A stretch of 64,000 nucleotides of DNA, taken from assembly GCA_013368315.1 (NCBI GenBank), contig JAACJM010000176.1, forward strand, positions 116,650 through 180,649, read 5' to 3'. A model generated the notes under the pieces. The model was given only the letters and a program-made list of their open reading frames with translations. It made no database searches and had not been told where the DNA came from. The translations under genes were made by a program, and so were the position numbers. Shown here piece after piece: positions 40,002 through 63,442 of this stretch. Every line of letters starts with the position of its first letter. The first letter of the stretch is position 1. The DNA comes from Tetrapyrgos nigripes. Its lineage: Eukaryota > Basidiomycota > Agaricomycetes > Agaricales > Campanellaceae.

Positions 40002-41435
40002 TGATACGCCTGCCAAAAACTCGACTAGAACGAGTTAAAAAGCGTACATATATCAAGTATACGGATATATTATGTCTGTTTACTAGGGAATAAGGACTGA
40101 AGCGAGCCCAATCTATCAGTTAAAGTGATTCTAGAGGCAACGTTCGCGAGCGCGATACGAAATAAGGATAAGTAGCCTCGAGAGGATGGTACATAAGTCC
40201 CTCAAGCTACTAAGTTCGATGTTCGAGTACTAGACTGCTCGTATACGTTTATACGTACATACCCAAGGCACTTGTTCACGAGTAGCCACCTCACGAGCAG
40301 TATAAGTACGTGTTACCTCTATTCACGATCCATGGGATTACCAATGTGACATAGACTCAAGAAGATAAGATACAAGACTAAAGGAGATGAATGATAACAA
40401 GGAGAAACCTCGGATAGGTGCCTTCGCGAAGTATCCCGGAGACATTCCGATAGTTCGCGAACCTGGTTAGATCTACTCAAGCTAAAGCTAAGATCGTCAT
40501 GATGTTGCCAAATGATCAAGATCTACCTCACCCCTCCTAAAGACACCAAAGAAGATAGTTCCGACGGATCTAGAGACTTACTGAGGCCCTCTAGAGGACT
40601 CTAGTAGGGATGGAGATATCGGAACCTATGAAAGACCACTCGCGAGCATTGGAAGAGGTTCGCATGTGATACCCAATGAGGTTACCAGTACAAGTACCGC
40701 TCTAGACCTCCATTACCAAGAAGCTAGCATGTGCTACATATACCCTGGCCCTCTCGCGAGGACTCTGTACATATTCTGATTGGACGATTCATGTAAATAC
40801 TGTTCGCGTATCTCTCTCCTTAGTTACTTTCATTCAATCTCTCGTGTTTCACTATATAATATTGTGGACTTTAAATAATATTAGCTACTGTACAGTTCTA
40901 GGACCTCTAGAGTATAAAAGGACGAAGTACTCATAGCTAGAAAACCAGATTAGTACTCGCGTGTATTGCTGCAGATTCTGGATAACTCTCGAGAGAAGAT
41001 TAGGTCTCTCGCTTGCCCAGGCCAGCTTTATATCAATAGGAATTTCTACAAAAACCCAAAACTTTAAAGACTCGAACATTAGTTCACCCTAAGACAAAGA
41101 TTGTTGTGATTGCATTGGCATATTGGCCCCATATTGTGTTTATTGAACTTAGGCATATTGGCCTCATTGTGTTATTGAAGATCTAGGCAATTGGCCTCTT
41201 ATTGTGTTTATCTCGAAGTCAAGAAGACTGTCAATTGTGACCATTGTTATTGTTGAACCCCTATTGTTCCCCAATCGGTTCTAGAGCCGTTTACCTTTAA
41301 GCTACACAAGTTATACGAGTGTTCTGCCACTTTTGATCACCTCACATTATATAGCAGGATTGGTGTTTGTGTGTTTTTGGTGTTGTTAGCTTCGATCTTC
41401 GAAGCTATTAGCATTATCCACTAGCCAGCCTATTA
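40002..41435 (+). repeat. 5' LTR of the large Ty3-type element
   Basis: Begins TGATACGCCTGCC, ends AGCCTATTA. Nearly identical to 62002-63433. Contains a ctctagagtataaaagg TATA-like site near 40904-40920, suitable for the sense promoter. Confidence 0.85.
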
Positions 41436-41438
41436 TAT

Positions 41439-41456
41439 TGGAGCCCACCGCAAGGG
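41439..41456 (+). other. Putative primer binding site
   Basis: TGGAGCCCACCGC begins three bases after the LTR end. The leading TGG fits a tRNA 3' CCA end. The tRNA was not identified. Confidence 0.5.
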
Positions 41457-41935
41457 GGTATCCATATAACTTAAGCTTACAAGCTCAAGAACTATAAAAG
41501 AAGCAACGTGCTTCAACCACCTTGGTGATACTTTGGATTGTGAAGTATTACTGCTACGTTTTGGATTACGCGAAGTAGTTATCCGGCAAGATTATCCCAA
41601 CAGATAAGCTTAACGGTGGCCATTGGACGAATCCATCAAAAAGAAGGACAGTACAAAGACTAGAGCGAGTTCCTGAACCAGAACCGGCTACGTCTTCACC
41701 TATCTTTCAACCTTATCCAAAGAACCCTCAAAGAACGCAGCTTGTCTCCAGAAGACAACGAGCGAACAGCTCTATTGAAAGTTTATCTCTTGAACCAGTT
41801 CCAAGTCAGGCTACTGAACCTAGTACGTCTGCGAACCTTCAAGAAGTAGAAGAACAAGAACAAGAAAGTTTATCTTCGTTATCACCCTCGATAGACTTAG
41901 ATTTCGCACTCCTTCAACCAGATTCACCCTCTACC

Positions 41936-43456
41936 ATGTCAGGTCAAAGAGCTCAATCTGAACCAGCAGGAGAGGAGGAAGTTGGATTGAATAATACGAC
42001 GATTCTGAACTTCAAAGTGACTAATGAAGTCTTGAGACAAGTACAAGACGATAAGCTGCCCAAGCGAAAAGATGGTCCTTACTTTACTGTTGATCGTGCG
42101 CCAGACCTAATGAAGTTCCTAGACGAACTGGAAGAACTATTCCAGAATAGAAAGGTTACGGAGGCTGACGCAAAGATCCTCATTGCTGTTAAGTACATGG
42201 AGTACGAAACCAAGAAGTTGCACTATGACTTGGCAGTGGAATGTAAAGGAGACTACGAGAAATTCACCGAGAAGCTGAAAGACTGCTATCCGGAGTCTGT
42301 AGATAATGGGAAAGGAAGTCTGATACGACTTCGCGACATAGTGAACAAGTATCAACTGATTCCATTAGGGCAACGCGAGAAGGTCCTGAAGTTCACTTGT
42401 GAGTTCAAGCTTGAAGCAAACAAGCTTATGGGTGATGAACCCATTCTCTCGAATGCAGAAGCAGTTGCCCTCTACATGATAGCATTCGCGGACGAGTTCA
42501 TAATGTCCATGCGAACCGTTATGCCGAGACCTAGCGAGAAGAGAAGGATTGAAGATCCTTACCCTATAGACACCATTTACGAAGTGTCTATATATACAGC
42601 GAGCTTTCAATTGGCCACAGCATTTGGTCTAGGAATGAACCCCTTGACCATGGGAGCTACTAGTCCTGAGCAATTAGGAGGAAGAGCTTCGCTGAACCCT
42701 TTGAGTTGGTTGCAGCCAAGTGCTAAAGTGACTGTAGGAGAAAGCTCTCGAACCATTACTTATCCTGCCAATAGGACAGGTATCAAACTAGAAGGAGACG
42801 AACTAAGTAGTCGACTTCTAGCAACCATGGACAAGAATGAAGCTACCTTGAAGGAGCTGAATACCCATTTGTCTAGCAGAGTTCTAGCTAGCTTAGCAAA
42901 GGCTCTCGCGAACAATCAAGGGAGTACCCCTAGAGCTATAGGCTCTGGTGGGTATAACAGTAATCATCAAGACAGGCATCGTTTTGAACCTCGTTCTAGA
43001 GACTTTAAGTGTTATTTTTGTGGGTCCCCCGAGCATGGTGTTCAAGATTGTCCTATACAGGACGAGTACATCAACGTGAGGAAATGGATTCGCAAGGATT
43101 CTAACACTGGAAAGTTTGTCCTCAAAGATGGTACACCTGCTCCACTAGGAGATGATAGAGAGTCTCGCGCTGTGAAAGTCGAGAGGATTGCCAAAGCTCG
43201 TGGATGGGATGTTGCCATCACTAAGGCAGTCATGTTTATGACGGAAGAAGAGTATGAGGATGTGTATGCTAAACCAATGGATTACTCTGTTAATGATCTT
43301 ATGGAGACTCTGAATGGCTTTATGACGAAGGTTACCACATCAAATAGTCAGTTAGGAGAAAGAATGGAAGCCCTAGAGGCTACGCGAAGGGATGATTTGA
43401 GCATCTACAATACTACAGTCAACTCGTGTAGTACTTCAGAAGGGCCGGGAAACTGA
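41936..43456 (+). CDS. Gag of the large Ty3-type element
   Basis: 506 codons from the ATG at 41936, though the same frame is open back to about 41580 (QPYPKNPQRTQ stretch), so the product may be longer. The capsid-like middle is followed by the zinc knuckle CYFCGSPEHGVQDCP near 43009. The frame ends at TGA and continues one frame lower in the next segment. Confidence 0.75.
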   Translation: MSGQRAQSEPAGEEEVGLNNTTILNFKVTNEVLRQVQDDKLPKRKDGPYFTVDRAPDLMKFLDELEELFQNRKVTEADAKILIAVKYMEYETKKLHYDLAVECKGDYEKFTEKLKDCYPESVDNGKGSLIRLRDIVNKYQLIPLGQREKVLKFTCEFKLEANKLMGDEPILSNAEAVALYMIAFADEFIMSMRTVMPRPSEKRRIEDPYPIDTIYEVSIYTASFQLATAFGLGMNPLTMGATSPEQLGGRASLNPLSWLQPSAKVTVGESSRTITYPANRTGIKLEGDELSSRLLATMDKNEATLKELNTHLSSRVLASLAKALANNQGSTPRAIGSGGYNSNHQDRHRFEPRSRDFKCYFCGSPEHGVQDCPIQDEYINVRKWIRKDSNTGKFVLKDGTPAPLGDDRESRAVKVERIAKARGWDVAITKAVMFMTEEEYEDVYAKPMDYSVNDLMETLNGFMTKVTTSNSQLGERMEALEATRRDDLSIYNTTVNSCSTSEGPGN

Positions 43457-43464
43457 AGACTCTG

Positions 43465-44847
43465 ATGATCGGGCCTACAACGACTCAATCAGTTCTCGTT
43501 GCGAACAAAAAGGCCCCTGAGGAGAAACGAATTCGACTCCCACCTGTTCCATCCGTAGTAATCCCTGTTCTGTCAAAGAAGAACAGAGAAGTATACCAAC
43601 CACCGCAAGTAAGAGAGAGGAAAGATAAAGAGACAGAAGATGCGTCGAGACCAAGAAATGAAGACTCGCAAAGCAACAAGAATCAAGAAGAAACAAAAGT
43701 GACCAAACCTACTACAACTGTTCGACCTGCTCTACCGCTAGGAAGACCTTTTGATGGACTTATACCCATAAACCAGGACAGGATAACAAACACGATTCGT
43801 CCTGCGATACCCAAACGTTCATCGAGAGCATCGATAGAGGAAGAAGAGGAATGGGTCAGTGTAGCAGATTTGATCGCGAAAGAAGAACTAGATACCAAAA
43901 TGGCTCATCATAAGAGCGCTGGTGATGAAGGGATAGCGGAAAAGATTCTTAGAGGAGAACTAAACCTTACTGCTCGAGAGATATTATCTGTTTCCCCATC
44001 AGTGCGAAGGATTCTTGCTCGCAAGGTAAGGAACCTAGCTATGAAACCGTCAAAAATGGCCACACATGTGAAGAAAGGTCCTGCCATAAGTATGAAGTCT
44101 ATGCCAGCATCTCAACCTGAGGAAGTACAATACTTTAACGTTGAAGACATGAGTAGCTATACTTATGAAGTCCTCATTAATAGTTGAGAGTTAGTCCATC
44201 GAGATCCTGTCGAACAGTTCTTAAAGGATAGACCTCGCGAGGACAGGGATAAGAAGCTTGTTCTAGCAAGTCGCCCTAGCGAGATGTTGAGAGTAACCTG
44301 CCCCAAGATCAACGGTAAACGACAAGTAGAGTGTGTAATGGATAGTGGTTCTCAAATCATATCCATGAACAGTGATGTTGGCGTGAAATTGGACTTACAT
44401 TGGGATCCTGACATTGTGATCCATATGCAAAGTGCCAATGGTGATCTTAACCCCACGCGAGGCCTCACGAAGAATGTACCTGTAATTTTTGGAGAGATTT
44501 TGATTTATCTTCAGATTCACATCATAGATGATACCCCTTATGAAGTTCTTATAGGGAGACCCTTTGATGTTCTTTGTGGAACGCAAATCAACAACGACGT
44601 AGATGGAGGTCAAGTTATCACGCTAACTGACCCCAACTCCGGTAGAAGATGTTGTATGGGAACATATCCTCGAGGAGGATCTCCTGTAGCGGCCCTCAGG
44701 AAGCAGAATGTACCTACTACCTCTGTAGTTGAGCCTGATACAGCCTCGAACGAAGAGAAGAAGACTAGGTCTGAATCTGCTGAACCTGAAGAGAAAGATA
44801 GCGCATCTCGAGAAACAAATTTTCTTCAGACCTCGATGAACTCTTGA
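43465..44847 (+). pseudogene. Gag-Pol linker and aspartic protease, one TGA
   Basis: The same frame runs across a TGA at 44185-44187 (LINS-stop-ELVHRD, probably Arg). Protease motif VMDSGSQIISM at 44336-44370 and a YEVLIGRPF strand match retropepsins. Near 44815-44825 the reading moves one frame lower to SSDLDELLNQEG, consistent with one T lost from the TTTT run. Confidence 0.7.
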
Positions 44848-47800
44848 ATCAAGAGGGAGAGGTGGCCATAAGTTTTCATTTTGACGAGAATGGTGATATC
44901 CTAATTGATGGATATTCAGTGCCAGAGAAGGATCGAACGTTCAGAAAAGAAGAAATATGTGAGTCGTACACGTACGCGAGCATGGCTCACATCGAGAAGA
45001 CAGACACTAAAGCAGCGCAATTGCTACAAAGTCTTTTACAAGAAAGACAAAGTGGTGATGCGAGTTCGTATACTCTACATCGAGTCGGAATAGATGAGTT
45101 CCCTGCGTGAGGAGTCTCGCAGACAGAAGGAACCTCGCGTTTTGACACCGGAGTGGTAGAAGTATATGGTAAGTATAAGCCAGTCGCTATAAAGGTTCGA
45201 CCAGTCAAAGATACCTTACCTGAAGAATTCAGAATCACTAGGGACATCACTGGCAACCCTCTCGAAGGTATGCCAGTACTTAATCCCAACCCGCCCGAGT
45301 TTGTGCCTGGTGAAAGGTACACTCTCGAACATAAAGAAATCATAGACGCGAACCATCCGGAAGGATTTCTACAACCAGAGGAACGAAAACTGTTGCATGA
45401 TTTCATGTTGAAACACAAACCAGGCTTTGCGTGGCAGACTAGCGAAGCAGGGAACTTCAAACGAGAATTCTTCCCTCCAATTCGTATTCCTACAGCTCCA
45501 CATGTTCCCTGGAATGAAAGACCTATTCCAGTTACTCCTGGCAAGCATAAAGAGGTCTACGACCTCATTCGCAAAAAGATTGCAGCTGGTACTTATGAAC
45601 CCTCGAATGGTTCATACAGGGGTACATGGTTCTGCGTACTTAAGAAAGATGGCAAGGTTCGAATTGTACATAGTCTAGAGCCCTTGAACAAAGTAACTAT
45701 TCAGCACGCAGGTATTCCACCTGCCACTGCTGATGTTGCTAGGAACTTCATGGGTGCCTCTTGTCTAGGGCTATTCGATATATTTGTTGGTTATGATCAC
45801 AGGTATCTCGCTCCTGAGTCGCGAGACATGACAGCGTTCCAAACACCCTTTGGATTGCATAGACTTGTCAAGCTACCTATGGGTTGGACGAATTCGGTCC
45901 CAATATTCCATGATGATGTTACCCACATCTTCAAGGATGAGATACCTCATCTAACTATACCTTATATTGACGATGTACCTGTTCGAGGACCACCTACTAG
46001 GTACGAGTTAACTGGAGGCGGCTACGAGACTATACCAGAGAACCCAGGCATAAGAAAATTCGTTTGGGAACACTTCCAAGGCTTAAATAGGATCGTTCAA
46101 CGACTGACCTATGCTGGAGAAACATTCTCAGGCAAGAAGAGTTTCTTGTGTGTACCACAAGCTACTGTGGTAGGAAACTTATGCTCTTATGAAGGACGCG
46201 AGATAGATCCTAAAAAGTTGGAGACCTTGATATCATGGCCTACACCTTTAAATCTACCCGAACTAAGAAGTTTTCTAGGGACATCGGGTCAGCTGCGAAT
46301 GTTTGTTAGAGATTACGCAAAGATAACAGCGGCGTTAAACAAGCTTACGGGAAAAGTCCCATGGACTTGGGGTCCAGAGCAGCAGAGCGCCTTTGATAAA
46401 GTAAAGGTTGCGCTCGCGATAGCCCCACCACTATGAGCAGTGAATTACAATGATAAAGAAGGAATTTGTGTGGGAGTAGATACTTCCTATATGGCTGTCA
46501 GTTATTACTTGTACCAGGTTGATCCTCACAATCCTAAGAAGAAGAACTACATTTACTTTGGTTCAATAACTCTTAACGAGAGGGAAGCTAGATTCTCTCA
46601 ACCTAAACGAGAGTTGTATAGTTTGAAGCTAGCACTCGAAGATTCATATTATACGACTTATGGATGTAGGAAACTGAAAGTATATACCGACGTGAGCTAT
46701 ATCAAAGGCATGCTCGACAACCCTAGTTGTGGTCCGAACGCTACAATTAATAGGTGGATTGAGGATGTTAGAAAGTATCACTTCGAGCTCATTCATGTCA
46801 AAGGAACAAGTCACGCGTTGGCTGATGGCCTCTTGCGAAGACCTCCCACGATAAGTTCGCAGCGTCGTACACTGCCCTCTGAAGAAGAACTGATGGATGT
46901 TGACGATTGTGCACCCATTCCCTTCATGAAGGATGATGAGAATGACGATGACACCTTCGACTTCGAGGATTTCAAAAAGTCTATTGATAATAGAGGAGGA
47001 TACTTGAATCAAGTAGCTAGAAGCTTCGAAGAGATTGAAGACAACATTCAAGAAGTTCTAGATGAAGAAAGAATGATCAAGAAAAGAACAGATGAAGTAC
47101 AGCATCTCTCTCTAGCTACTGTAGCTCAGTTCGCGCAGACAACCCTGCTGCCTGAAACTATGGAAGAACATGTTGTGAAGCATCCCTATAGTGAAACACA
47201 TAGGTCTTCAGCTGCGAAAGAGATGGATGGCTTACTTTTAGATATTAAAGAATATCTAATAGATCCTACAGAACGAAGATGGAAAACAAAGAAGAAAAGA
47301 CAACAGTTCGAGAAGCTACTATCAAAGTTCTTCGTAGATACTGAAGGACGACTCTACAGGAAAAGTCCGGTTGGGGGGAATCAACCCCTTCTAGTCGCAC
47401 CACAAGGAAAGAGAATGTATATGATGCAAGCTGCGCACGACCACCTTGGTCATAAAGGTGTCTACGCAACCACAGCTATGCTCGAGAAGCGATTCTGGTG
47501 GCCTGAGCTCGAGAAGGATGTCAACTGGTTTGTATCCTCTTGTCAGACATGCCAAGATCGACTGCTACAACATGTAAGGATACCTCCTACTGTAACATAT
47601 ACACCTTCTCTATTCCAAAAAGTTCATGTAGACGTCTTCAAAGTATCTCCAGCTAGTAATGGCTGTAAACATGTAGTACATGGTAGATGTGCTTTGTCTA
47701 GATGGTCAGAAGCACGAGCCTTATGACAAGACAATGCGAAAGGTATCGCTGATTGGCTCTTCGAAGACATTATTTGCAGATGGGGTTGTCCAGAAGAGAT

Positions 47801-48788
47801 AGTGACGGATAATGCACCTCAAATGATAGCAGTACTTAAGTGGTTAGAAACTAAGTATGGTATCAGGGGTATAACCATTTCTGCCTACAGCTCGCAGGCA
47901 AATGGTATCATCGAAAGGGCACACTTTGACATAAGACAAGCTCTAGTGAAAGCAACTGGTGGGGATCTAGCGAAGTGGTACTGGTTCTTGAAACCTGTAC
48001 TTTGGTCAGATCGAGTGACAGTAAGAAAGGGACTTGGTTGTTCACCTTACTTCATAACACTAGGAGCTGAACCGATACTACCTCTAGACATAGTTGAGTC
48101 TACGTGGTTGGTAAAACTACCAAATCGCGTGCTTACTACAGAAGAGTTAGTTGGTTATCGAGCTCAAGCTTTAGCTAAACATCGTGTACATATAGAAGAT
48201 ATGATAGCCCGTGTAGATGAACGCAAAAGAAGAGAATTAAGAAGATTCGAGAGGGAATACAGACATGTAATCAAAGATTGGGATTTCAAACCTGGAACTC
48301 TAGTACAACTACGCAATACGCGAATTGAAAAGAATCTAGACCGGAAGATGTATCCTAGATACTTAGGTCCAATGATAGTCATTCGTAGGACGCGTGGTGG
48401 TGCGTATATACTAGCAGAAATGGATGGATCAGTACTTCGCGAGAAGGTAGCAGCCTTCCGCCTACTTCCCCACAAAGCTAGATATAAACTGATAGAGTTA
48501 CCAGAGAATATCCACTCTCTAATAGATCTGAGTCCTGAACAACTAAATAAGATGGTACAGGAAGAAGAACTTTGAGATGAGGATTGGACACCTGATAGGG
48601 ATTATATATTTGATGCTATTCCTAACCTTCGAGTTCCACAGTTTGACGACAACGACGAATTAGTTGAGCTTGAACCTTCAACTGCGCAGGAAGAACCACG
48701 CGAGGTTGAACCAGAAGAAGAAAACCCGGATGAAGAAGTCGGAGTACGCACGCGTGCTCAAAGAAGGGCACAGAATGTCACCAAGTAG
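44848..48788 (+). pseudogene. Pol: reverse transcriptase, RNase H, integrase (four TGA codons)
   Basis: One continuous frame to the TAG at 48786-48788, broken only by TGA at 45108-45110, 46434-46436, 47724-47726 and 48573-48575. RT has PYIDDVP in place of YxDD, KLPMGWTNSVPIFHDDV and LRSFLGTSGQLR. RNase H has VDTSYMAVSYYLYQ and a YTDVSYIKGM strand. Integrase has the HDHLGHKG / CQTC zinc finger, core residues in VDVFKVS, TDNAPQM and NGIIERAH, and a C-terminal YPRYLGPMIVIRR module. At two of the TGA sites (PPL-x-AVNY and RAL-x-QDNA) an Arg fits what I know of related elements. Confidence 0.8.
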
Positions 48789-48814
48789 GGAAAGTCTAAA
48801 AAGATAGACTTCCC
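48788..48814. repeat. Hairpin after pol
   Basis: GGGAAAGTCTA and TAGACTTCCC form an inverted repeat with an AAAAAG loop, directly at the pol stop. It may be the end of the SINE-like segment that follows. Confidence 0.6.
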
Positions 48815-48902
48815 TGCCCCAGGTAAATGTGTTGTAGACCGGATGCCAGCTACACGCTGCACAACAGGCCAACTTCCACAATACCCGGGGCGAGGGAAGC
48901 CA

Positions 48903-48988
48903 GAGCTAACCCGGATTCGAACCAGGGATTGCTGCGATTGAAGTATGAGCCTCATGTCACAGCTGTGTTACCACTACACCATCAGCAC
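48903..48988 (-). tRNA. tRNA-like sequence, possibly a tRNA-derived SINE head
   Basis: On the minus strand an A box TGGTGTAGTGG (48971-48981) and a perfect B box GGTTCGAATCC (48913-48923) sit at normal spacing. Acceptor arms GTGCTGA/TTAGCTC pair in six of seven positions, the T stem pairs, and an anticodon stem GCTGT/GCAGC encloses a 23-base loop, too long without an intron. No U33 is in place, so the anticodon cannot be assigned. A pseudo-tRNA or SINE head is more likely than a working tRNA gene. Confidence 0.4.
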
Positions 48989-49150
48989 GTATAAACACAA
49001 AGGCAGTGACATATGGTTGTACTCCGTTGGCGACATTACTCAAAATCGAAAGCCTGAGTCGTGTAGACGTTGTGTTACTTAGTTCACCCAAAAAGAAATG
49101 AAGTACTAGGCATGTATTGCAATAACTACTACTTCGCGAAGACAAGTATA
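48989..49150. other. Spacer inside the large LTR element
   Basis: No gene recognised. Confidence 0.35.
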
Positions 49151-49477
49151 CCTAGGACAAAGTACCAAGACCAGTGTAAAGACCGAAGAAGACCCATCTA
49201 ACGGGTTAAAGTTGCATAACGAAAGAACTATGCCTTTGCTCCACTACCACTCGCAACCTTGTCCGCTGGCGAATCAGATTCGCGAACAACAGAATCCTCG
49301 AGTTGAGTACGTGCCTAGGACGAAGTACCAAGACCAGTGTAAAGACCGAAGAAGACCCATCTAACGGGTTAAAGTTGCATAACGAAAGAACTATGCCTTC
49401 GCTCCACTACCACTCGCAACCTTGTCCGCTGGCGAATCAGATTCACGGAACAACAGAATCCTCGAGTTGAGTACGCG
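49151..49477. repeat. Tandem duplication, unit about 163 bases
   Basis: Copy 1 starts at cctaggac (49151), copy 2 at cctaggac (49314). Both end in a gagttgagtac phrase. Copy 2 has one extra G near 49446. The duplicated unit carries the 3' end of antisense gene B. Confidence 0.85.
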
Positions 49478-50301
49478 CCAAATGTATGCGAACGACCTCC
49501 TGGTAAGACGAGTGTAAACTCTGATAGGACTGCGTGTGGAACTGGATTTGGTGGCGAACAGAAAGGATTTCGTTCGCAAGAAAGTTCTTGATAGCATTAA
49601 GAACCTCAGGAGGGAGTTCGTCGAAAACCACGAAAGGAAGCAGGTTGACATCCTGCAAAAGCTCGGAAGGGTCGACGGTGAGAAGCTTCTCTTGTTCTGC
49701 GTACGCAAAGTCAGTTCAACCTTCGCGAAGGCAACAGGCTTAACACACACCTGAAGTTAGCAGGTTAAAGTTGGAAGAGGTACCTCCAATTCGTCCTCGA
49801 CGAGCGGTATCCGACTTAGCAATATAGAAATTAGCTTTTCTGTATTCGCGAGATGTCATATCGACACCAGGCACCAATGTGATAGGGAATACACACCGTA
49901 GTAGCCCTAGCAGGGGTCGCACTGGCTCGGGAAGGTGTCTATAAAGAGTCCGGATACTAAGTATAAAAGAAGAATGAAATGTGAACAGTACTCATGGAAC
50001 TAGCTGAGTTCTTAGGAATCTTCGCAAGCTTAGCCTTAGGGGGAGCATGAACAGAGGCCTTGATACCAGGTTCAACCATCTGGGTGAACAAACTCGGTAA
50101 AAGGGACCAGACGCGAACATGCTCTCTAGACTTACCTCAACATTGCCAGTGTGACATCCTCAATATCATCATCGGTGATAATCTGCCTAGACTAAAGAAG
50201 GCATTACTTGAGGGATCCAGCGAGGTTGCTCTCGAGAAAAGCTGCTCGGTCCTCCAGCTGGAAGCATCGAACAGTTCAGAAGTTTTTGAGTTTTGGGACA
50301 T
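49391..50301 (-). CDS. Antisense gene B in the large LTR element (unknown function)
   Basis: Minus-strand ATG at 50301 (MSQNSKTSELFDASSWRTEQ) lies about 80 bases after a TATAAAAA box at 50377-50384. Coding-like pieces continue with QIITDDDIEDVTLAML, then LPEPVRPLLGLLRCVFPITL and REYRKANFYIAKSDTARRGR. A 54-base intron with GTGTGT donor, CTGAC branch site and CGCAG acceptor leads to EKLLTVDPSELLQDVNLLPF and PPEVLNAIKNFLANEILS. A one-base slip is needed near 50190, and one extra G in the tandem repeat ends the frame early at about 49440; the other repeat copy keeps it open. No known domain. Opposite orientation to gag-pol. Confidence 0.5.
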
Positions 50302-50376
50302 AGCAAAAGAGCGACGGATATGAAGCTCTGAGTAATAAGAAGACGGTTGGAAAGAAAGTGCGAGTTTGAATGCCCT

Positions 50377-50384
50377 TTTTTATA
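50377..50384 (-). promoter_or_regulatory. TATA box of antisense gene B
   Basis: TATAAAAA on the minus strand in a GGC...GGGC context, about 80 bases upstream of the ATG. Confidence 0.5.
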
Positions 50385-50490
50385 GCCTTCGTGAACCTGA
50401 GAGCTAGGGAGACGACCACATAAAGTGTGTTTGCGAACCTCGGCCAGGGAGCCTCACGATACCGCTATCATCGGGACGATGATTCAATTT

Positions 50491-50503
50491 AGTTGGGGGG
50501 AGA
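50491..50503 (+). other. Internal polypurine-tract-like site
   Basis: AGTTGGGGGGAGA, identical to the terminal tract before the 3' LTR at 61989-62001; 17 bases are shared if flanks are included. Here it is followed by TGGTGGTGTCAAG, not by the LTR. Confidence 0.6.
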
Positions 50504-50875
50504 TGGTGGTGTCAAGATAACACAAAGATCCGGAATAATCAGAAAGATTTCGATTTTCTCCATGTGTACATCAGGGTAACACCATGCCTCATTTCAACTA
50601 CTATAGCACCAGTATTACAACCCTGAAGAATCTTAAGATTGACTTAGATCTTAAAAACACACAAAAGAAAGAAGGTACAAAGATCGATTTATTCAGTGCA
50701 TCTATGTACAGAAAGCAACCAGACAGCAAGAAAACAAGCAGGATAGTAGTGATACAACTCAGAAGCGACAGGAATAAGTAGTAATACTACGCGAAGTCGT
50801 TCGAGTGACAAGAAAGTATGCAGATAAAGTAAGATGACTATAAAAGAATAGTTAGAAGAAAATAAAAGAAGAATA
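50504..50875. other. Spacer downstream of antisense gene A
   Basis: AT-rich. A 65-codon plus-strand frame (50584-50781) shows no domain. The segment may hold the terminator of gene A. Confidence 0.35.
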
Positions 50876-53800: not shown

Positions 53801-56800
53801 ATGTAGAAGGGAAAACTCAAATCGTGTGAGGAATAGCGCCCATCGTGCTTGTCGTCGACTAGTTTCTGGTTAGTCTGGAAGTATTCCAGTTCCTGTGGTC
53901 TGTAAAGATTTCGATAGTATGGGGGCTCCTTCCAAATAATGCCTCCATGTTTTAACGCTCGTATGATTGCCAGTAGTTCTTTGTCATGGATGTCGTAGTT
54001 TCGTTCGGTTTCAGAGAGGGATTTAGAGATGTAGGCGACTGGATGCCATCGGTTGTCCTCCCCTGTTTGCATAAGTATTCCCCCGTTGCGTAGTCTGATG
54101 CGTCCACCTCTACTCGGTATGGTTTCGTGTGATCCGGCATTAAGAACAGGTTTGGAAGTGAAGGCCGTTTTGAGGGCTTGGAAGGCTTTCTCGGCCTCTG
54201 TACTCCAGTACCACTGGTTGTCCTTCTTCGTCAGATCGAAGAGAGGTCGTGCGATTTTCGAAAAATCTTTGATGAAGCGTCTGTAGAAGTTCCCGAACCC
54301 CAAGAAGGCCTGTACTTCCTTCACTGTTTTGGGTGTTGGCCATTCAACTACTCCTGCTACCTTGGTCGATCCATCGCCAAGGTGTCATGAGAGACAATCA
54401 GTCCTAGGAAGTCGACCTTGTCTGCTTCGAATACGCATTTTTCGGGTTTGGCGTACAGGTCGTTATCCCGTAGTCGTTGTAGAACTGTTCGGATCAGTTC
54501 CGATGTTCTTCTATGTCATGGGTGAATATTAAAATGTCATCCATATAAATGACGATCTTCCCTTGGTCAATGAGATCCTTGAAAATAGTGTTCATCATCG
54601 CTTGGAAGGTCGCTGGCGAGTTCATTAATCCAAAGAACATGACCGTCGGTTCGAATAGTCCTCGGTTGGTTTTGAAGGCGGCTTTCCATTCGTCCCCCTC
54701 TTTGATACGAATGTTATTGTATCCCCACCGTAGGTCGATTTTGCTGAATACGTATGCGTTTTTGAGTTTGTCGATTAGTTCTGGGATGAGGGTAGTGGAT
54801 ACGCGTTCTTCACAGTCCCTTTATTGAGTGCTCTGTAATCCTGTACGGGACGTAGCTTTCCGTCCTTTTTTTTAACAAAAGAAGGGACTTGCCATTGGAG
54901 ATTTTGATGGTTTAATATATCCCTTTTCGAGATTCTCATTCAGGAAGGTGTCGAGTTCGGATTGTTCGTTTGGGGAAAGGGGTATGTTTTACATGTGCGT
55001 GGTAGGAAACCGTCTTGTAACTCGATTGCGTGGTCCCAGTCACTTCGTTGGGGTAAGCGTTCTGAAGTCTTTTTGTCGAATACCGACAAGTATTCGTGGT
55101 AATGTTTGGGTATCTGCCCCTCTAATGGGGCAGGTGAGTTCGTGGATTCGTCTTCAGTGCCTCGACGTGCTTTGGAAAAGGCAGCTCGGATACTTAGCTT
55201 GGTTTCTGATGGGTCTTCGTCGGGGTCGCTCGGGTATCCAAGTATTCCATAACGAGTTCACTCCATTGTCCTGGCACCTCCCATTGTCCGGTTGTATCTT
55301 CTGAGGTAAGCACTGCTCCTAAGTCGATTCGTTGCAGTCGGATGTTTCTAGACTGTTGTGATCGGCGTTGTCCGGCTATCTTTGATTGTGGTGTAATTTT
55401 ATGAGGTCCTACGATGTCCCTGAATGTCACTTGGTAATCTCGTGGTACGTTCTGGGATCGACTATTTCAGGTTGTTTCGTTTTCGTAGATAGGGTGTCGA
55501 CTTAGCTTTGGTTCGTATGGAACTTTTCTGTTGTACAAGCGTCGGGGCATCGTGTCAGGTTGATTTCTGATGTTGCCCAATCGATTTCCGGATTATGATG
55601 TCGTAACCAATCGGTTCCCAAGATGATATCGTGGTCTCCTATGTCTGTGATGTAAAACTCGGCGGTTTCCTCATGGTGAGATTGATGGTTTGGTTGTAGA
55701 TTCGTAGTTTTTGAACGGTGTAGTGTTTTACCCATCCCATTACGTTTTCTGATCCGTCGACATTCCGAACTGGAAATGGTTTTTCTAGGGGAGTACGTTT
55801 GGTGATGTTTTTGGGCAAAGGCGTCGTTGATGATGATTCCTTCCGCTCCACTGTCTAGCAAGGCGGTTGCGTCGATTTTTCGTCCAGTTATTTTCCCGAT
55901 CAATTCAACTTTCAACTCTATTGAAGGGGTCTGTTGGTTTCGAGTGATTGCCGTGATTCTTAATTCAGATGGGATCGTGGCTTACGAAAGGGTATAGGCT
56001 CGTGTATTGCCTGTGTTTTACTGGTATGTATGTCCATGTCCTCCTCCCACGACGTGGCAGGGGAGGTATTCAAAAATCCGATTCCGTTACGAACTTCTTT
56101 AGTAGTCCTTCTTTCTCTTCTCCCGACAATGCTCCGATTCTGGCAGTGAGTTCTGAGATATTATCCGTGGTAGTGTTGACCTTGGGTCCGAGGTCTCTGT
56201 GACGACTGCGGTTTTCTTTATGGAGGGTCTCCAGGTCGTGTTGTTGGGGTGGTCGGAGGCGTGCTAGGGAACGTAGGGCAATCGTTACCCATATGTCCCT
56301 GTCCTCGACATCTGAAGCATCGCCCTTCCTTCCTCATTTTTCCCTTTCTTGGGGGGTCAGTTTCGGTGGATATTTAGTGATTGAAGATGCACCTGGGACG
56401 TTGTCTTGGAAGGCGTTTACTTCCATACTTCTTGCTCGACCACTTCTCGTGCCCTGTGACCCCTTCCGGTGTCCTTCTCCTTCGAGTTTACTCCATGAGG
56501 TTTTCTCTTCCTGCTTTCTAACCAAATCATGTGTTGTTTTACCGCCGCCTTTTGTAATGCCGCGAGACTTTTGGGTTGAGTGGACAGGTAGGAGATCCGG
56601 TCGACTAGTCCTCGGGGAGTCCTTTTCGATAGTACTTCATTAACGCCTTGTCGTTATAGCCAGTATCGTCAGTGTATCGTTTAAATTGAGAGTTGTACTT
56701 ATCGATGTCAGCCAGGGTCCCTTCCATTCTAATATGTTCTATCTTGGTTTGGGCCTGGGTTTCTCGAGCTGAGGGTTTGAAGTCTCGTAGGAATTCTCGT

Positions 56801-59800
56801 TTCACCTCGTGTAGAGTCCAGGATTTCTTTTTCGTTTTTGAGGCGGAAGAGTCTTCATCGGTACTCGTATATTCTTCATCACTATCACTGAAGTCATCTT
56901 CCTCCTCAAGACCTTCGCCATCATATTTCGTGCCCATCGTTTCGCTTCATCTCCTGAGAATAGTGTGAGGAAGAATGATATCTTTTCGTCTTCGGTAGGA
57001 TAGATTTGGTCGTTGAGACAGAGATAGTTGTTAAATTCGGCCATCCAATCTTTCATTTGGTTCCGATCTCCTGTGAACTTCTCTGGTTTTACTCCTCGCT
57101 CTTTGGTAGTCATGTTAGGGAAGGCTGAAGACTGCGCGTCATCGTCAGGTGGTGCGACGTCATGGGGTGCTTGGGTTCCTCCCGCAGCGGCTGTGGCGGG
57201 ATTTTCGGACATTTCGAGGGCGGCGTGAAGGGAGTGGAAGTCGATTGGTTGTGAGGGGTTGACTGAGATGGGTTCTTGGACTGCACTAGGAGTACTGTCT
57301 GTTGGGGACCTGTTGAGAGGGTTTTGGGGTTCTAGAGGAGTTTCGTTGTCTGGGTTCGGTTCGTGAGAAGGAGTTGGTGATGGGGTTCTGACAGGATTCG
57401 GGTTTTCTGTGGTAGATTCTGATAGAAGTGATTGGAAGAGTAAAACTGGTTCGATACCGACTGTTTGTTCTTCGGTTGAGAGGGGTCATTGTTTACGGAG
57501 AGTCGATTGGGACACAGATGGGTTGTACAAAATTCCCACCGGTTTTCGTGTGAGAAGTAGCAGTCTTGTTGATTTCGGGGGAAATGTGCGTGAGGATGTC
57601 GGAGACAAACGATGTGGGGAGAGGAAGTGCGACTGGGATTTTGTGAGGCTGTACGAGATCTAGTGCTTCTAGGGATTCCACTTCCGCTCATTCACTCGTT
57701 TTCGGATTCCGGAAACAAGTGATCCCACTGTTCACCTGAGACGTCTTCCCAAGAGGTTAGTGACCTGTAGTAGTTGTTTACTCTAGGGATTCGAGTTTGG
57801 AGATATTTGTGGTATTCTTCTCGGTTGAATTCCGAGATAGCGCTATCTTCGTAGTCGGCGTGACTGAACCAATATGGAAGAGTTGTGTTTCCTAGTTGAA
57901 CGAAGTAACAAGTGTCTGCAATTGTAACGTGGCGTGGGGGTGTTTTCAGGTGATATCTTTATTCGGAGGTATTCGAGGATGGCAACTTCACCTGAGGTCC
58001 ACGATCTTTTGTTGAGTACGATCCAACAATTGTCGAATGCGATAGTGTGTTCATGTATTGCTGTTTTAACTTCTTCTAGGTAGTTTATGAAGCCGTCCGA
58101 TGCTTTGATGGGGAAAGGATATATCGGTGGGGGTCGGGTTCGTAGGTTGTTAAGGAAGGGTTCGAAGTTAAGAGCCAGAGTATTTGTCAGAGATTTCTGT
58201 GCGAGGTTTGTCTGTGAGGTGGGTGTAAGAGAGTCTGTTCAAGTGTCAAGAACGTTGTCACTTAGCAAGCCACCCAAGTCACACAATGAACAAGATAGAT
58301 TCGGCGAGTTACAATGAAATGAGATAGAGAAAGAGAGATAGAGACGAGAAGAGAGCGAGTAGCTGACTATGCTCGACACTGCACTGTACTAGGAGCGGAG
58401 TGGAGACGAAGTGAACAGACTAAGGAATCTAGCTACGAGATCTATGATATATATAAAAGAGAAATGAATATGTGAGAAAGTCCATGGAGCCTAGGGATCG
58501 GAGGAGATAAGAATGTGAGTCAAGTAAAGAAGTATATATGTGAGAATGTCCATGGAGATAAAGGGAACGGAGAAGTGAGTCATAAATTGGAATGGACGAT
58601 GATGAGAAGTAATTAGTGTTTATGGGTTTATGGAAGATGGTGATAGAACGGAGAACGGGAAGCAGATAGGTAATAGAAGAAAATGAAGAAGAGATGAAGG
58701 AGGCGAGAGGCGATTCATGACAGCGTGGACACTGGGGAAGCGGTTTCCTCATCCTCTTCCGTTCCTGGGTCCCTCTCACCAGCCAATGCGATCTGCTGCA
58801 TCGCCTCCTTCTTCTTCCTTGAGAATGTGGGAGACTTGGTCGAGACTCCAGACGAAGATTTTGAAGGGGTGGACTTCTTCGTGCGAGGTGGCGTAGAATC
58901 TGGAGTGGTAACAGTAGCAGCAGGAGTCTGGGGAGAAGTATCAACTCCAGAACCTGCTCGTGAAGCCACATCACCCTCGGAAACCTCGTCGTCTTGACTA
59001 ACACCGTCACCAACTCGAGGATGGGAAGGTCCAGCAATATGACTCAACGACGGAGAGGTGACCATGAGGTCAGCGAAGGAAGGATCTGGGAGAGAGGGCT
59101 GAGCAAGAGGCATAGAAGCTACGTGCGAAGCCCAAAGTGGCAAACCAAGAGAAGACGAGGGGACCATGGAGAAAGCCCCAGTGACCTCGTCTCGGATAAG
59201 GGTGTTGGGTTCGGCCAGGGTATTGACTTCCCAGCCGCCGACCACTGCGAGCTGCTGAAGACGCTCGCTGGTCACCTCCAGCCTACCTCCTTCTCCTCTA
59301 GCCAAGATCTCCATGATCAAAGCAGGGTCACGAGCCTGTTCGTGCATCTTCGCCTGCTCAAAGGCGATCATCTCGTCTAGCTCTAAGACGGTCGCGCAAA
59401 GACCGTTGGCCTGAGCCTGAGTAGCTGACCGAATACGCATAAGCTCGAGGACTCGAGACACCGAAGTCTGTACCTCTAAAGAAAGAATAAAAGTAAGTAA
59501 GAGATAAAAAGACAAAGAAAAGAAAGACTCACGATGCGGGCTGTTACGTGCGAAGTAACTCGCCATGTCCTTGAGCAGGAGCACCTTAACGGTGTCAAAC
59601 GTGTTGGAACACATCTGACCCGCCTTCTGGCAGCACTGGCATTTAGCAATGTGCACCGTACCGTCAGATCCAACGCTCTGGACACCCTGCACGTCGCAAG
59701 TATGGTCCATCCGTTCCATACACCGGAAACAGGTGTCGGACGACTAAGAAATAAGATTAGAATAAGAAAAGACAGAAACGCAATAAGAAGAGAAACTTAC

Positions 59801-61463
59801 ATGGCAGAAGTTGGCATTGGCGCGAAGCCAAGTATCCAGGTTGATGGTTATAGGTACTCGCGTACCATAACCGACCCGAATGTTGGCCTTCGCAGCTTCT
59901 AGAAAATACAAGAAAGAACTGTAAGAAGAAGGACAAGAAAAGAACGAAATACATACCGGGAGTCAGCGTATAAATGGCCTTATTCTGATTTCCGAAAGTA
60001 TACTCGCTCTAGACGGGAAAGGCAGGTCAGCAAGGTGTTCGCGAAGGGAAAAGAAAGGAAAAACATACCTTGTACCCGTACTTCTTAATGTCGAAGTCGG
60101 TGAGACCCTTGGCAGAGGCAAAGACTTCGGAAATAGGATCGGTCCCATACTTGAAATTGAGATGCCCATCGTGGTCCTCCTCTGCCTCCTCCTTGACGAC
60201 AATCGCCTTGGCCTTGCCTTTCGCCTTCGCCGACTTTGGCTTGACCACCACCACCTCCTCTTCTTCTTCCTCTTCTTCCTCTTCTTCCTCTACCACCGGA
60301 GTCTTTGCCCGTCTTGAAGCTGGAGTATCCTTTGCAATCTTCCGACCAGACCGGGAAGGCTTCGCGAGCAGCGGTAACACGTCGTCACCGTCGTCCATAT
60401 CATCATCGGAGACTGGGGGCAACGTTTGGGACTGGGTCCTGCGAGAAGAAGTGGTGGAAGGAGTTTTCAAGATGGATTTAGGCTTGGGAACGGGCCTAGC
60501 CTTCACAGATTTCTATTAATGAAGATATAGTCAGTAAAAAGAAAGATCAAATAAGAAAAGAAGTATTAGAACTTACGGAGGTATCGGTCTTATGAGCTTT
60601 AGCTGGAGGCTCGCTATCTCCAGACAGTTCCTTGCGCTTACGTGTAGCACGCGAAGGCGGAACCGCTACCACTGGCTTGATGGGAGCCGGTGTGATAGGA
60701 AGGAAGTGAGGAGGTGTAGGTACCAAGGTACCAGGCACTGCAACTTCCTTCCTCGAATCTGGAACCGTCGAGGTAGAAGCCTTGGTAACCGTTCGAGCCG
60801 GTTTCGTGGCAGGAGCACCCTCACGAGCTGGACGGGAACTACTCGCGAGCCTCGAGTCCGAAGTAGGCTCATCCAGAAATGTCGGCTCATTCTAAAAAGA
60901 AAGGAAAATCAGTAAGGAATAGCAAAAGAGAACTAAAACACGTACTTTCAGATTTCTAGGCTTAAATGCAGCCTCCAAAGAGAAATCCTGGTACAAAAAG
61001 AAGAAAACGTTAGTTCACAAAAGGCATAAGACATAAGGAAATATCTAGACTCACCGGGAAGTCCTCCCAAAGACGACAAGAAGCCTCCGAGGCCTCGATC
61101 GCCCAGTCAAGCTCTACCTTGGCACGAGCAGCTGCGGTCTCCCAGAAAGAGTCCACAGACGCGCAGGCTTTTGCGTAAAGACCCCTGAGACGTTTGGAAG
61201 TCTGGTCACCGCAAACCTCTACGGAATACTGGAGGTGGCGCTAGCTAAGGGATTAGGATGATCAAGAACCGAGAGAAGAATATAAGAAGACACACCAAGA
61301 AAGGAAACAGTTTCCGAAAACTGTCCTGCTCCTCTCACGAAGCACTGACCATCTCGTCCTCACAGGTGTCCGCCTGTACCAACATTACGCGAAGTAATTC
61401 GCAGCGTTGAAGGTTGGCATCGTTCTTGGGATTGATGAGTCTGGGTTCGAAGGTCGAAGGCAT
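50876..61463 (-). CDS. Antisense gene A in the large LTR element, nine exons, split by nested chromovirus
   Basis: Exons on the minus strand: 61350-61463, 61055-61240, 60946-60987, 60577-60891, 60069-60512, 59957-60008, 59801-59898, 59533-59743 and 58723-59475 continued at 50876-51018. All eight introns are GT-AG, 54-109 bases. After removing the insert 51024-58722 and one copy of its GCGTG target repeat, the sum is 2358 bases, an exact 785-codon frame plus stop with no internal stop. The protein starts [15 protein letters not shown]. It has a basic Pro/Ser region, an acidic run, then a Cys-rich module ([12 protein letters not shown] ... [11 protein letters not shown], exon 8), a helical segment and a Ser/Arg-rich tail. 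No known enzyme; the Cys module may bind zinc. The intact frame suggests selection until the recent insertion. Confidence 0.75.
51024..51497 (-). repeat. 3' LTR of the nested chromovirus
   Basis: 474 bases, TGTCAAGAACG to TTCATGACA. Only a few substitutions and small gaps separate it from the partner LTR. Confidence 0.9.
51642..52049 (-). CDS. Extra Cys/His-rich frame downstream of pol
   Basis: 135 codons, [20 protein letters not shown] start. Two related modules, [14 protein letters not shown] and [13 protein letters not shown], then an Asn/Trp/Gly-rich tail. It overlaps the end of the chromodomain frame and precedes the polypurine tract. I do not know it from other chromoviruses. Confidence 0.45.
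   Translation of the reverse strand: MSTPIAITVSTTTTTTIDPLTDNTGRCRYGLCSGRRCRLDEGHTGRHNGCNQCIWPGHESSKRCRLGAGHRARCTTYPSSLRSNERNNLGWGDASVWGGNIHLNYVDNNTGWGTVNNTDGWVHGKESDGGDVSQI
51898..52389 (-). pseudogene. Chromodomain region of the chromovirus
   Basis: [20 protein letters not shown] followed by YLIKVVGL fits a chromodomain, which in this clade guides integration toward modified chromatin. The usual Trp of the KWKGY motif is absent in the visible frame. Confidence 0.6.
52528..53586 (-). pseudogene. Chromovirus integrase
   Basis: Zinc-finger part with [20 protein letters not shown] and CAKCQ; core with TDFITDLP and HVTVDKSTK, then [20 protein letters not shown] near 52980. Frame breaks occur near 53060 and 52540. 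Confidence 0.75.
53665..55110 (-). pseudogene. Chromovirus reverse transcriptase and RNase H
   Basis: IYMDDILIF (catalytic YMDD) near 54530-54560. [20 protein letters not shown] (thumb) near 54270, and RNase H motifs including [11 protein letters not shown] and [11 protein letters not shown] near 54000-54120. Several one-base slips split the domain among frames. Confidence 0.75.
55502..55915 (-). pseudogene. Chromovirus protease
   Basis: [16 protein letters not shown] near 55860 is the retropepsin active site; [19 protein letters not shown] follows. The frame shifts after about 55800. Confidence 0.7.
56334..57212 (-). pseudogene. Chromovirus gag
   Basis: Starts [18 protein letters not shown] and shares [20 protein letters not shown] and LKRYTDD-like stretches with the truncated copy at 28.3-31.5 kb. 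The zinc knuckle falls near 56300-56330. At least one frame change is needed near 56930. Confidence 0.7.
57213..58243 (-). other. Chromovirus leader with pre-gag coding-like sequence
   Basis: Stretches such as [14 protein letters not shown] (57332-57691) and [14 protein letters not shown] (near 57970) are conserved in the truncated copy at 28.5-29.1 kb, suggesting a coding leader, but no single frame is intact. Confidence 0.45.
58244..58722 (-). repeat. 5' LTR of the nested chromovirus
   Basis: 479 bases, same ends as the partner at 51024-51497. Confidence 0.9.
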
Positions 61464-61558
61464 TGTTGATATATGCACTCTGGAGAGGTGGCGAGAACTA
61501 AAGAAGTGGTGGTTGGATGAAAAGAAGGGACTTGTAAATATTTGGCGTTGGTTGAAGT

Positions 61559-61566
61559 TTTATATA
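61559..61566 (-). promoter_or_regulatory. TATA box of antisense gene A
   Basis: TATATAAA on the minus strand, 97 bases upstream of the ATG at 61463. Confidence 0.55.
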
Positions 61567-61988
61567 CACGCGAACTTCAACCAAAGCGTGATTCGAAGCT
61601 TAAATGAACTCTATGCTCATTCAGAAGCGGGAACTCATACAAGAACGCCGCGTTTCTAATTTTGGAAACCGGTATTGAATGAAACGATGTCATATCGGTT
61701 ACGGAATTAACCAAGGACTGTCTCCGGTCTAGAGAGCGACAAAGCACAAGTCCTGGGGTTATCCCCTTTATGAATTCGGATTCTAGAGGTCGATATCTAT
61801 CAAGAACAAGTCCCCATATGTCTATACTCCTCGAGTGAACTCAACTCGAGACCCAAAATAAGTAGAGTTTGTGGCTTCGCGAAGCAGAGTCTTGAATGTG
61901 TGTCAAGACTGATTTCTGGTCTGAACTTTACCTCACGACTCTTTGCTTATACCACGCGAATGCTTGACCAAGGACGGTCAACTCTTTT
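61567..61988. other. Spacer between antisense gene A promoter and 3' LTR
   Basis: No gene recognised. Ends in the terminal polypurine tract. Confidence 0.4.
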
Positions 61989-62001
61989 AGTTGGGGGGAG
62001 A
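61989..62001 (+). other. Polypurine tract of the large Ty3-type element
   Basis: AGTTGGGGGGAGA directly before the LTR start TGATACG, the expected place for plus-strand priming. Confidence 0.75.
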
Positions 62002-63433
62002 TGATACGCCTGCCAAAAACTCGACTAGAACAAGTTAAAAAGCGTACATATATCAAGTATACGGATATATTATGTCTGTTTACTAGGGAATAAGGACTGA
62101 AGCGAGCCCAATCTATCAGTTAAAGTGATTCTAGAGGCAACGTTCGCGAGCGCGATACGAAATAAGGATAAGTAGCCTCGAGAGGATGGTACATAAGTCC
62201 CTCAAGCTACTAAGTTCGATGTTCGAGTACTAGACTGCTCGTATACGTTTATACGTACATACCCAAGGCACTTGTTCACGAGTAGCCACCTCGCGAGCAT
62301 TAAGTACGCGTTACCTCTATTCACGATCCATGGGATTACCAATGTGACATAGACTCAAGAAGATAAGATACAAGACTAAAGGAGATGAATGATAACAAGG
62401 AGAAACCTCGGATAGGTGCCTTCGCGAAGTATCCCGGAGACATTCCGATAGTTCGCGAACCTGGTTAGATCTACTCAAGCTAAAGCTAAGATCGTCGTGA
62501 TGTTGCCAAATGATCAAGATCTACCTCACCCCTCCTAAAGACACCAAAGAAGATAGTTCCGACGGATCTAGAGACTTACTGAGGCCCTCTAGAGGACTCT
62601 AGTAGGGATGGAGATATCGGAACCTATGAAAGACCGCTCGCGAGCATTGGAAGAGGTTCGCATGTGATACCCAATGAGGTTACCAGTACGAGTACTGCTC
62701 TAGACCTCCATTACCAAGAAGCTAGCATGTGCTACATATACCCTGGCCCTCTCGCGAGGACTCTGTACATATTCTGATTGGACGATTCATGTAAATACTG
62801 TTCGCGTATCTCTCTCCTTAGTTACTTTCATTCAATCTCTCGTGTTTCACTATATAATATTGTGGACTTTAAATAATATTAGCTACTGTACAGTTCTAGG
62901 ACCTCTAGAGTATAAAAGGACGAAGTACTCATAGCTAGAAAACCAGATTAGTACTCGCGTGTATTGCTGCAGATTCTGGATAACTCTCGAGAGAAGATTA
63001 GGTCTCTCGCTTGCCCAGGCCAGCTTTATATCAATAGGAATTTCTACAAAAACCCAAAACTTTAAAGACTCGAACATTAGTTCACCCTAAGACAAAGATT
63101 GTTGTGATTGCATTGGCATATTGGCCCCATATTGTGTTTATTGAACTTAGGCATATTGGCCTCATTGTGTTATTGAAGATCTAGGCAATTGGCCTCTTAT
63201 TGTGTTTATCTCGAAGTCAAGAAGACTGTCAATTGTGACCATTGTTATTGTTGAACCCCTATTGTTCCCCAATCGGTTCTAGAGCCGTTTACCTTTAAGC
63301 TACACAAGTTATACGAGTGTTCTGCCACTTTTGATCACCTCGCATTATATAGCAGGATTGGTGTTTGTGTGTTTTTGGTGTTGTTAGCTTCGATCTTCGA
63401 AGCTATTAGCATTATCCACTAGCCAGCCTATTA
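62002..63433 (+). repeat. 3' LTR of the large Ty3-type element
   Basis: Nearly identical to 40002-41435. Differences seen by eye include CG/CA and CG/TG pairs, for example cctcgcgagc here against cctcacgagc, and a short deletion near 62300. Confidence 0.85.
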
Positions 63434-63442
63434 CCGGTTACA

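Follow-up and report, generated by a model that had tools for sequence, protein, structure and literature searches.

A 64,000-nucleotide stretch of the Tetrapyrgos nigripes genome (GenBank assembly GCA_013368315.1, contig JAACJM010000176.1, positions 116,650 to 180,649 of the forward strand), called the window here, was found to carry between positions 40002 and 63433 a Ty3/Gypsy-type long terminal repeat (LTR) retrotransposon with two intron-rich genes, A and B, on the minus strand between pol and the 3' LTR (Table 1). The assembly comprises 98.5 Mb in 587 contigs, and the contig of the window, C172 in the numbering used below, ends with the window. The two outer LTRs share 99.3% identity over 1432 aligned positions, have TG...TA ends, and are flanked on both sides by the 4-bp target site duplication (TSD) CCGG. 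Protease, reverse transcriptase (RT), RNase H, and integrase follow one another in the Ty3/Gypsy order, with the protease and RT matches under the Pfam cut-offs, and removal of a nested insert and one TSD copy leaves 15,728 bases, in agreement with an earlier reading of this DNA (the original prediction) as a Ty3-type element of about 15.7 kb without its insert.

Two antisense genes between pol and the 3' LTR

The original prediction placed two minus-strand genes in this interval, each preceded by a TATA box, and both could be read whole in other copies of the element; in the window, TATA-like boxes start about 95 to 105 bases (gene A) and 75 to 85 bases (gene B) before the ATG. Gene A has the eight introns proposed for it, all GT-AG and 54 to 67 nt long, separating nine exons; the window copy proved in addition to be broken, its last exon split by the nested insert and its first exon interrupted by a nonsense codon. 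In copies that lack the nested insert the antisense block is uninterrupted. Four such copies of gene A were read fully (C154, C4, C25, and C431), of which only C154 is open, the others carrying lesions. The C154 gene encodes 799 amino acids in 800 codons including the stop, a length over which base composition predicts 31.0 stops and none interrupts the frame.

For gene B, "at least one" intron had been proposed, and whole copies contain five, all GT-AG and 54 to 61 nt long (one measures 57 instead of 56 nt in C205). The window copy is about 355 bases short relative to C25 and is also frameshifted. Gene B is open in C25 and C4, has one stop each in C154 and C431, and has a frameshift in C205; its open form spans 327 codons, for which 14.7 stops are expected from base composition and none was seen. 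Chance open frames, with only an antisense non-coding RNA of any consequence (for example, in self-silencing), would fit the lesions found in most fully read copies of each gene, but such stop-free lengths, and the low ratios of nonsynonymous to synonymous change (dN/dS) between subfamilies described below, refute that account as far as sequence allows, and we give it almost no credence.

The gene A protein contains basic runs, a long acidic run, and terminal arginine-serine stretches. The spacing of the cysteine motif encoded by exon 8 is identical in C200, which carries a diverged gene A, and bears no more than a resemblance to the fungal Zn(II)2Cys6 motif; gene A could not be placed in that family (PF00172), having no Pfam family at an E value of ≤1. 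Searches with parts of the protein against 5.8 billion proteins gave no match at an E value of ≤0.001, exons 8 and 9 had no match among Protein Data Bank (PDB) sequences, and an AlphaFold model of exon 8 built with no alignment (mean pLDDT, 63.6), too poor to use, had no Foldseek match at an E value of ≤0.001. Gene B gave nothing above the Pfam cut-off, only two unrelated sub-threshold matches, and no match among PDB sequences. Its exon 6 is 71% identical, over 79% of the query, to a 123-amino-acid JGI metagenome protein; it had no plasmid match, and no match in IMG/VR was confirmed.

Table 1. Coordinates of the element and its parts in the window
Feature	Position	Strand	Remarks
5' LTR	40002..41433	+	TGATAC...CTATTA; TSD at 39998-40001
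gag-like open reading frame (ORF)	41579..43456	+	CX2CX4HX4C knuckle, by eye
Aspartic protease ORF	44188..44847	+	PF13975, E 2.1e-05, under curated cut-off
RT ORF	45111..46436	+	PF00078, E 0.0023, under curated cut-off
RNase H and integrase ORFs	46437..48575	+	PF17917, PF17921 (integrase zinc domain); split by in-frame stops
tRNA-like gene	48902..48988	-	RF00005, 38.3 bits (gathering threshold 29)
Gene B, broken copy	49391..50301	-	ATG at 50301; six exons, 326 amino acids in whole copies
TATA-like box, gene B	50378..50385	-	
Internal polypurine tract	50489..50502	+	TTAGTTGGGGGGAG; between genes B and A
Gene A, last exon, 3' end	50876..51018	-	Severed by nested insert
Nested Ty3-type element	51024..58722	-	TSD GCGTG at 51019-51023 and 58723-58727
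Gene A, exon 9, first part	58728..59475	-	
Gene A, exon 8	59533..59743	-	Cys motif CX2CX7CX18CX2CX6C
Gene A, exon 7	59801..59898	-	
Gene A, exon 6	59957..60008	-	
Gene A, exon 5	60069..60512	-	Basic and acidic runs
Gene A, exon 4	60577..60891	-	
Gene A, exon 3	60946..60987	-	
Gene A, exon 2	61055..61240	-	
Gene A, exon 1	61296..61463	-	ATG 61463-61461; one nonsense codon
TATA-like box, gene A	61559..61566	-	
3' polypurine tract	61987..62000	+	Same 14 bases as at 50489
3' LTR	62002..63433	+	TSD at 63434-63437

Copies of the element family

With the window pol as a DNA query, 11 places matched at 94 to 100% and the next at no more than 79% (40 of 72 candidates scored). The original prediction named two observations that would point to a local rearrangement, copies of the LTR family lacking the antisense genes and the genes occurring only as single-copy host loci, and neither was found. 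Genes A and B are present in 11 of 11 family copies as assembled, gene A in C213 being a fragment of 267 bp, and the listed genome matches of the gene A protein at an E value of ≤0.001 all fall in these copies or in C200 (56 of 73 candidates scored). The gene A of C200 comes after an LTR 91% identical to that of the window, and its protein shares 69 to 72% identity in exon 8 and 48 to 49% in exon 9. C200 also has, immediately beyond gene A, an element related to the nested one (71% by DNA; L043, L057).

Some of these copies appear to share one sequence. The right part is identical in C172, C168, C58, and C3 throughout the regions compared (50975-52540, 57226-63490, and 567 bases of flank), these four contigs terminate at one and the same base past the LTR, and C22 (C22:309937-311370) is 99.8% identical over 57230-63488 and has its flank in common with the group. 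Left TSDs read CCGG in C172, CCGC in C168, TCGT in C58, ACGT in C3, and CCGC in C22, and the right one is CCGG. Because only the window TSD is consistent, the right halves of C168, C58, C3, and C22 are probably assembly chimeras of one nested copy, and for this reason five nested copies were not accepted as a mobile composite. Gene A in these five contigs may be a single sequence duplicated by assembly; with the four possible duplicates set aside, seven distinct gene A copies are counted (C172, C4, C25, C154, C431, C205, and the C213 fragment). The 5' LTR flanks of C154 and C431 agree at 12 of 12 compared bases, and by their coordinates each stops 1219 bases beyond the LTR; that of C25 agrees at 11 of 12; the three are likely a second set of chimeric joins.

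Gene B follows an integrase clade

Beyond the family, the gene B protein matched 30 further loci at identities mostly of 33 to 42% (range, 32 to 55%). Gene B lay within 8 kb at 24 of 34 diverged integrase loci of the same clade, counted outside the 11 family copies, and at 0 of 60 integrase loci of other lineages. In all 24 cases gene B was positioned downstream, on the strand opposite to the integrase, with a distance of 0.8 to 2.8 kb in 22 cases, 5.8 kb in one, and the two touching in one. Carriage of antisense genes by most copies was therefore found at the level of both the family and, for gene B, the clade. Since gene B is kept across a branch of relatives, it probably serves the element and is not just along for the ride.

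These counts come from an integrase search in which 138 of 683 candidates were scored. The clade was defined as integrase rows at ≥57% plus C187, whose integrase reached only 38 to 44% because its frame is broken (68 to 72% by DNA), and all remaining rows were classed as other. Rows belonging to the 11 family copies were removed (11 of 49 for pol DNA, 49 of 97 for gene B protein, and 15 of 140 for integrase), as were nine integrase rows that were second pieces on contigs already counted (three in C19; two in C433, one of them 5 kb off; and one each in C7, C6, C81, and C308). When loci were counted by pol DNA matches instead of integrase, gene B was present at 17 of 23. With the C7 gene B protein as the query, C96 was added (25 of 34, by eye), gene B was found at C178 and C368, where no integrase was listed (also by eye), and six separate matches in exon order were recovered at C19:712766-714087.

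In the subfamily represented by C365 and C128, a second antisense gene, here called A-like, lies between gene B and the 3' LTR. It was tried as a homologue of gene A and rejected: an hhalign comparison of exon 2 gave a probability of 0.52, and the highest of 30 shuffles reached 0.68. Because this does not rise above the controls, only its position, orientation, selection, and similar-looking start are claimed as common ground with gene A. C17 (integrase, 57%) was likewise rejected as an ancestral one-gene form, the sequence after its polypurine tract (PPT) not being repeated as an LTR. Its region 38900-42390 (L065) is a sister-lineage element in which a PPT-like run precedes an antisense gene of intron-like structure, and the antisense frame matched the end of gene B weakly (E value of 0.020 in a 3.5-kb target).

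Selection and intron positions

Constraint on the antisense proteins was seen between subfamilies, with a low dN/dS (0.06 to 0.24) for most subfamily pairs. In gene B exon 6 (68 codons), compared among C365, C128, C29, C7, and C19, all but one of the 10 pairs had a ratio of 0.06 to 0.14; dS and dN were, for instance, 0.33 and 0.019 for C365-C128, 0.18 and 0.025 for C365-C19, and 1.33 and 0.133 for C365-C7. The A-like gene gave 0.18 in exon 2 and 0.24 in each of two later exons between C365 and C128 (478 codons in total). For gene A, the comparison of C154 with C200 gave a pS of 0.815 and dN of 0.197 in exon 8 and a dS of 1.48 and dN of 0.457 in exon 9.

Several introns also keep their places. 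Gene B introns 1 and 5 occupy the place corresponding to C25 in C7, C365, and C128 alike, intron 4 lies within about 3 residues of its C25 place in C365 and C128, and introns 2 and 3 were placed in C7 only. Some intron donors of gene B in relatives are not of the common form. Precise intron loss in C7 was considered and ruled out, the deletion at intron 4 being imprecise. Intron 1 of gene A also keeps its position in C200.

That the two genes were transduced once, as a pair, from the host and ride along as passengers of no use to the element would explain why they look host-like, intron-rich with TATA boxes of their own, and why constraint among recent copies is weak. Against such an origin, which we judge very unlikely, gene B tracks the clade through mostly 33 to 42% identity in fixed orientation and position, it is under purifying selection between subfamilies, and all listed gene A matches fall within elements.

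Repeated polypurine tracts

The 14-base PPT TTAGTTGGGGGGAG occurs twice, once in the gap that separates genes B and A and once before the 3' LTR. When up to 2 mismatches are allowed, the expectation for the window is 0.48 occurrences, and two are reached in 10 of 100 shuffles; both found here are exact. The same core is found after pol in C365, C128, and C19, and some 150 to 190 bases ahead of the gene B start codon in the window and in C365, C128, C29, and C7. C365 bears a further copy at a 47-base stretch 87% identical to the window PPT plus LTR start, and its PPTs number three in all (after pol, between gene B and A-like, and at the LTR). This pattern fits modules added singly before the 3' LTR, extra plus-strand primers, or both.

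Because the motif is repeated at module borders, an origin by fusion keeps a small probability: the antisense block would then be what is left of other mobile elements that inserted in reverse and were carried along, and the PPTs would mark their old ends. The exact tracts at 50489 and 61987 and the three in C365 are what such fusion would leave. It is nonetheless unlikely: neither protein had a Pfam match above the cut-off, no inverted repeats of ≥60 bases were found between 38000 and 64000, where the direct repeats are two LTR pairs and one tandem, and integrase and gene B have a long joint history.

A different and tentative possibility, which we would not yet favor, is that the antisense gene set grew stepwise, with intron-bearing units added at the junction of the PPT and 3' LTR, old 3' PPTs left internal, and the products serving as regulators of the element in a program that is run from its minus strand, is spliced by the host, and resembles that of HBZ of human T-cell leukemia virus (HTLV), a gene that has a spliced form. 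If so, the internal PPTs may double as extra plus-strand starts for long element DNA.

Other features of the element and its insertion sites

The pol region of the window is broken by in-frame stops, and four of the five compared are absent from C4, which has one in-frame stop of its own relative to the window copy. The window at 43611-49315 differs from C4 at 76 bases, of which 55 are CpG-type transitions, pointing to decay at methylated CpG or a process like repeat-induced point mutation. The gag-like ORF had no match in the Pfam scan. Directly 3' of the 5' LTR, where a primer binding site would be expected, the sequence begins TGGAGCCC. The tRNA-like gene, antisense to the element, is present in 11 of 11 family copies, has extra bases in its anticodon arm, and gave zero matches in the genome outside those copies; ARAGORN in its bacterial setting did not call it. 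As a source of the primer it was rejected, since its 3' end mismatches by eye the bases after the 5' LTR.

The nested element has LTR pieces 98.3% alike, and its minus-strand coding sequence gives domains of protease, RNase H, and the integrase zinc type. A tandem duplication (49151-49479; unit of about 163 bases, 97% alike) lies over the end of gene B, and gene B DNA matches suggest that, among the other copies, only C168 has it.

A search with the LTR listed 40 places (40 of 65 candidates scored). Thirty were fetched, of which 11 have identical 4-base flanks left and right and thus look like solo LTRs. Loci L006-L030 have 4-bp TSDs, and a central CG occurs in 21 of 22 typed 5' flanks (those of C154, C431, and C25 being probably one flank), whereas CG has a frequency of 3.6% across the window; to judge by these flanks, the element seems to insert at CpG.

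A clade with probable antisense accessory genes

Three origins had been offered for the antisense block (an accessory element gene, a captured host gene, and two fused elements), and the first fits best. The presence of the genes in the family copies, the association of gene B with one integrase clade, the fixed orientation, the constraint on the proteins, and the places of the introns argue for genes of the element and not for a local rearrangement. We consider it likely that the antisense genes which this Ty3/Gypsy clade carries downstream of pol, ahead of the 3' LTR, are accessory genes that have promoters of their own, are spliced by the host, and encode probable nuclear proteins. Gene B is the widely distributed one, and a second antisense gene (gene A, or A-like in the C365 and C128 subfamily) lies on its 3' LTR side. 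Each gene would be transcribed from its own minus-strand promoter, as predicted from the TATA-like boxes, and the antisense transcripts would be spliced by the host. The element itself would move via sense RNA; this RNA holds the introns only in complementary form, so they would be copied and not removed, and by this reasoning all 13 introns could be retained. The original prediction explained the survival of the introns in this way, as sequences that cannot be spliced from sense genomic RNA, and the explanation is sound in principle. The A and B proteins would act in the nucleus on expression, silencing, or integration of the element. Since there is no domain or fold match, this role, the most likely one by analogy, draws on composition and on the known systems discussed below.

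Several observations weigh against this interpretation. Neither protein has a Pfam match above the cut-off, gene B and the searched part of gene A have none in PDB, and exon 8 of gene A has no fold match; the promoters and the splicing of both genes are predictions. The count of 11 copies rests partly on chimeric-looking contigs, and homology between the A-like gene and gene A is unsupported. Gene B is missing at 10 of 34 clade integrase loci (9 with the C7 query), and 6 of 30 diverged gene B loci, and likewise C178 and C368, have no integrase nearby, for all of which decay and contig ends may be the cause. Selection is also uneven. In gene B exon 6, C29-C7 gave a dN/dS of 0.42 (dS, 0.123; dN, 0.052), and the five pairs with C25 are near saturation, one of them fully saturated, with dN of 0.63 to 0.65 and ratios of 0.25 to 0.57 where finite. 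Exon 1 of the A-like gene, in an uncertain frame, gave 0.86. Among the recent copies C154, C4, C25, and C431, ratios were 0.36 to 0.92 for gene A and 0.30 to 0.81 for gene B, weak constraint of the kind expected for young, partly decaying copies. Two gene B introns escaped automatic placement in C365 and C128.

A sequence that passes through RNA should lose its introns, and retroelements are therefore regarded as ill suited to carrying genes rich in introns. Two such genes, one with eight introns and one with five, have traveled here with an LTR element, gene B for long enough that its protein has diverged to mostly 33 to 42% identity with several introns still in place, and antisense placement offers a testable route by which retroelements could retain introns.

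Comparison with known systems

Two antisense coding genes between pol and the 3' LTR give the element the arrangement termed aORF-3R (antisense ORF, aORF). In the plant elements Retand, Grande, and RIRE2, aORFs are described at the same place and as conserved across their lineages (passages in PMC7264820 and PMC11963269), a likeness to the present clade in both respects. Grande is described there as having its own promoter and a nuclear product and Retand as having predicted DNA binding, and nuclear action is suggested for the antisense proteins of both and reported for HTLV. Unlike Retand, where the cited passages report TRP28 in 97% of clusters, the Pfam scan of genes A and B found neither TRP28 (PF04195, Retand lineage) nor any other match above the cut-off. 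The plant genes are also described as ORFs, and the word "intron" occurs 0 times in the main texts of PMC7264820 and PMC11963269.

HBZ of HTLV is likewise antisense, and its product is nuclear and important to the viral cycle (passage in PMC11963269). HTLV differs in being an infectious virus whose antisense promoter is in the 3' LTR (passage in PMC7264820), whereas the TATA-like boxes found here lie inside the element and the genes have up to eight introns. Extra genes in retroelements are known as well from the ORF3 of bdelloid LTR elements (passage in PMC5408684, whose main text contains "intron" 0 times) and from Penelope elements, which are described as carrying intron-containing genes and whose ends frame intron-containing host genes (passage in PMC3846280); the Penelope route is a different one, and these elements fall outside the LTR retrotransposons.

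The original prediction knew of no fungal example. For the intron-rich form this stands, as the open PMC literature yielded no LTR element with an intron-rich antisense gene pair, a search that does not establish absence in print; for an antisense gene as such it does not, given the gene brtn of the Boty-like elements of Botrytis cinerea (cited in PMC7264820, PMC8365987, and PMC4227169). Boty resembles the present element in position, being a fungal LTR element that PMC7264820 lists among those whose antisense ORF follows pol and precedes the 3' LTR, but the citing passages name one gene and do not mention introns, whereas two intron-rich genes are present here. Antisense accessory ORFs were thus already known from Grande, Retand, and Boty; what is new, as far as seen, is their intron-rich form, and with it comes a fungal system for the question of what the antisense accessory genes of LTR elements do.

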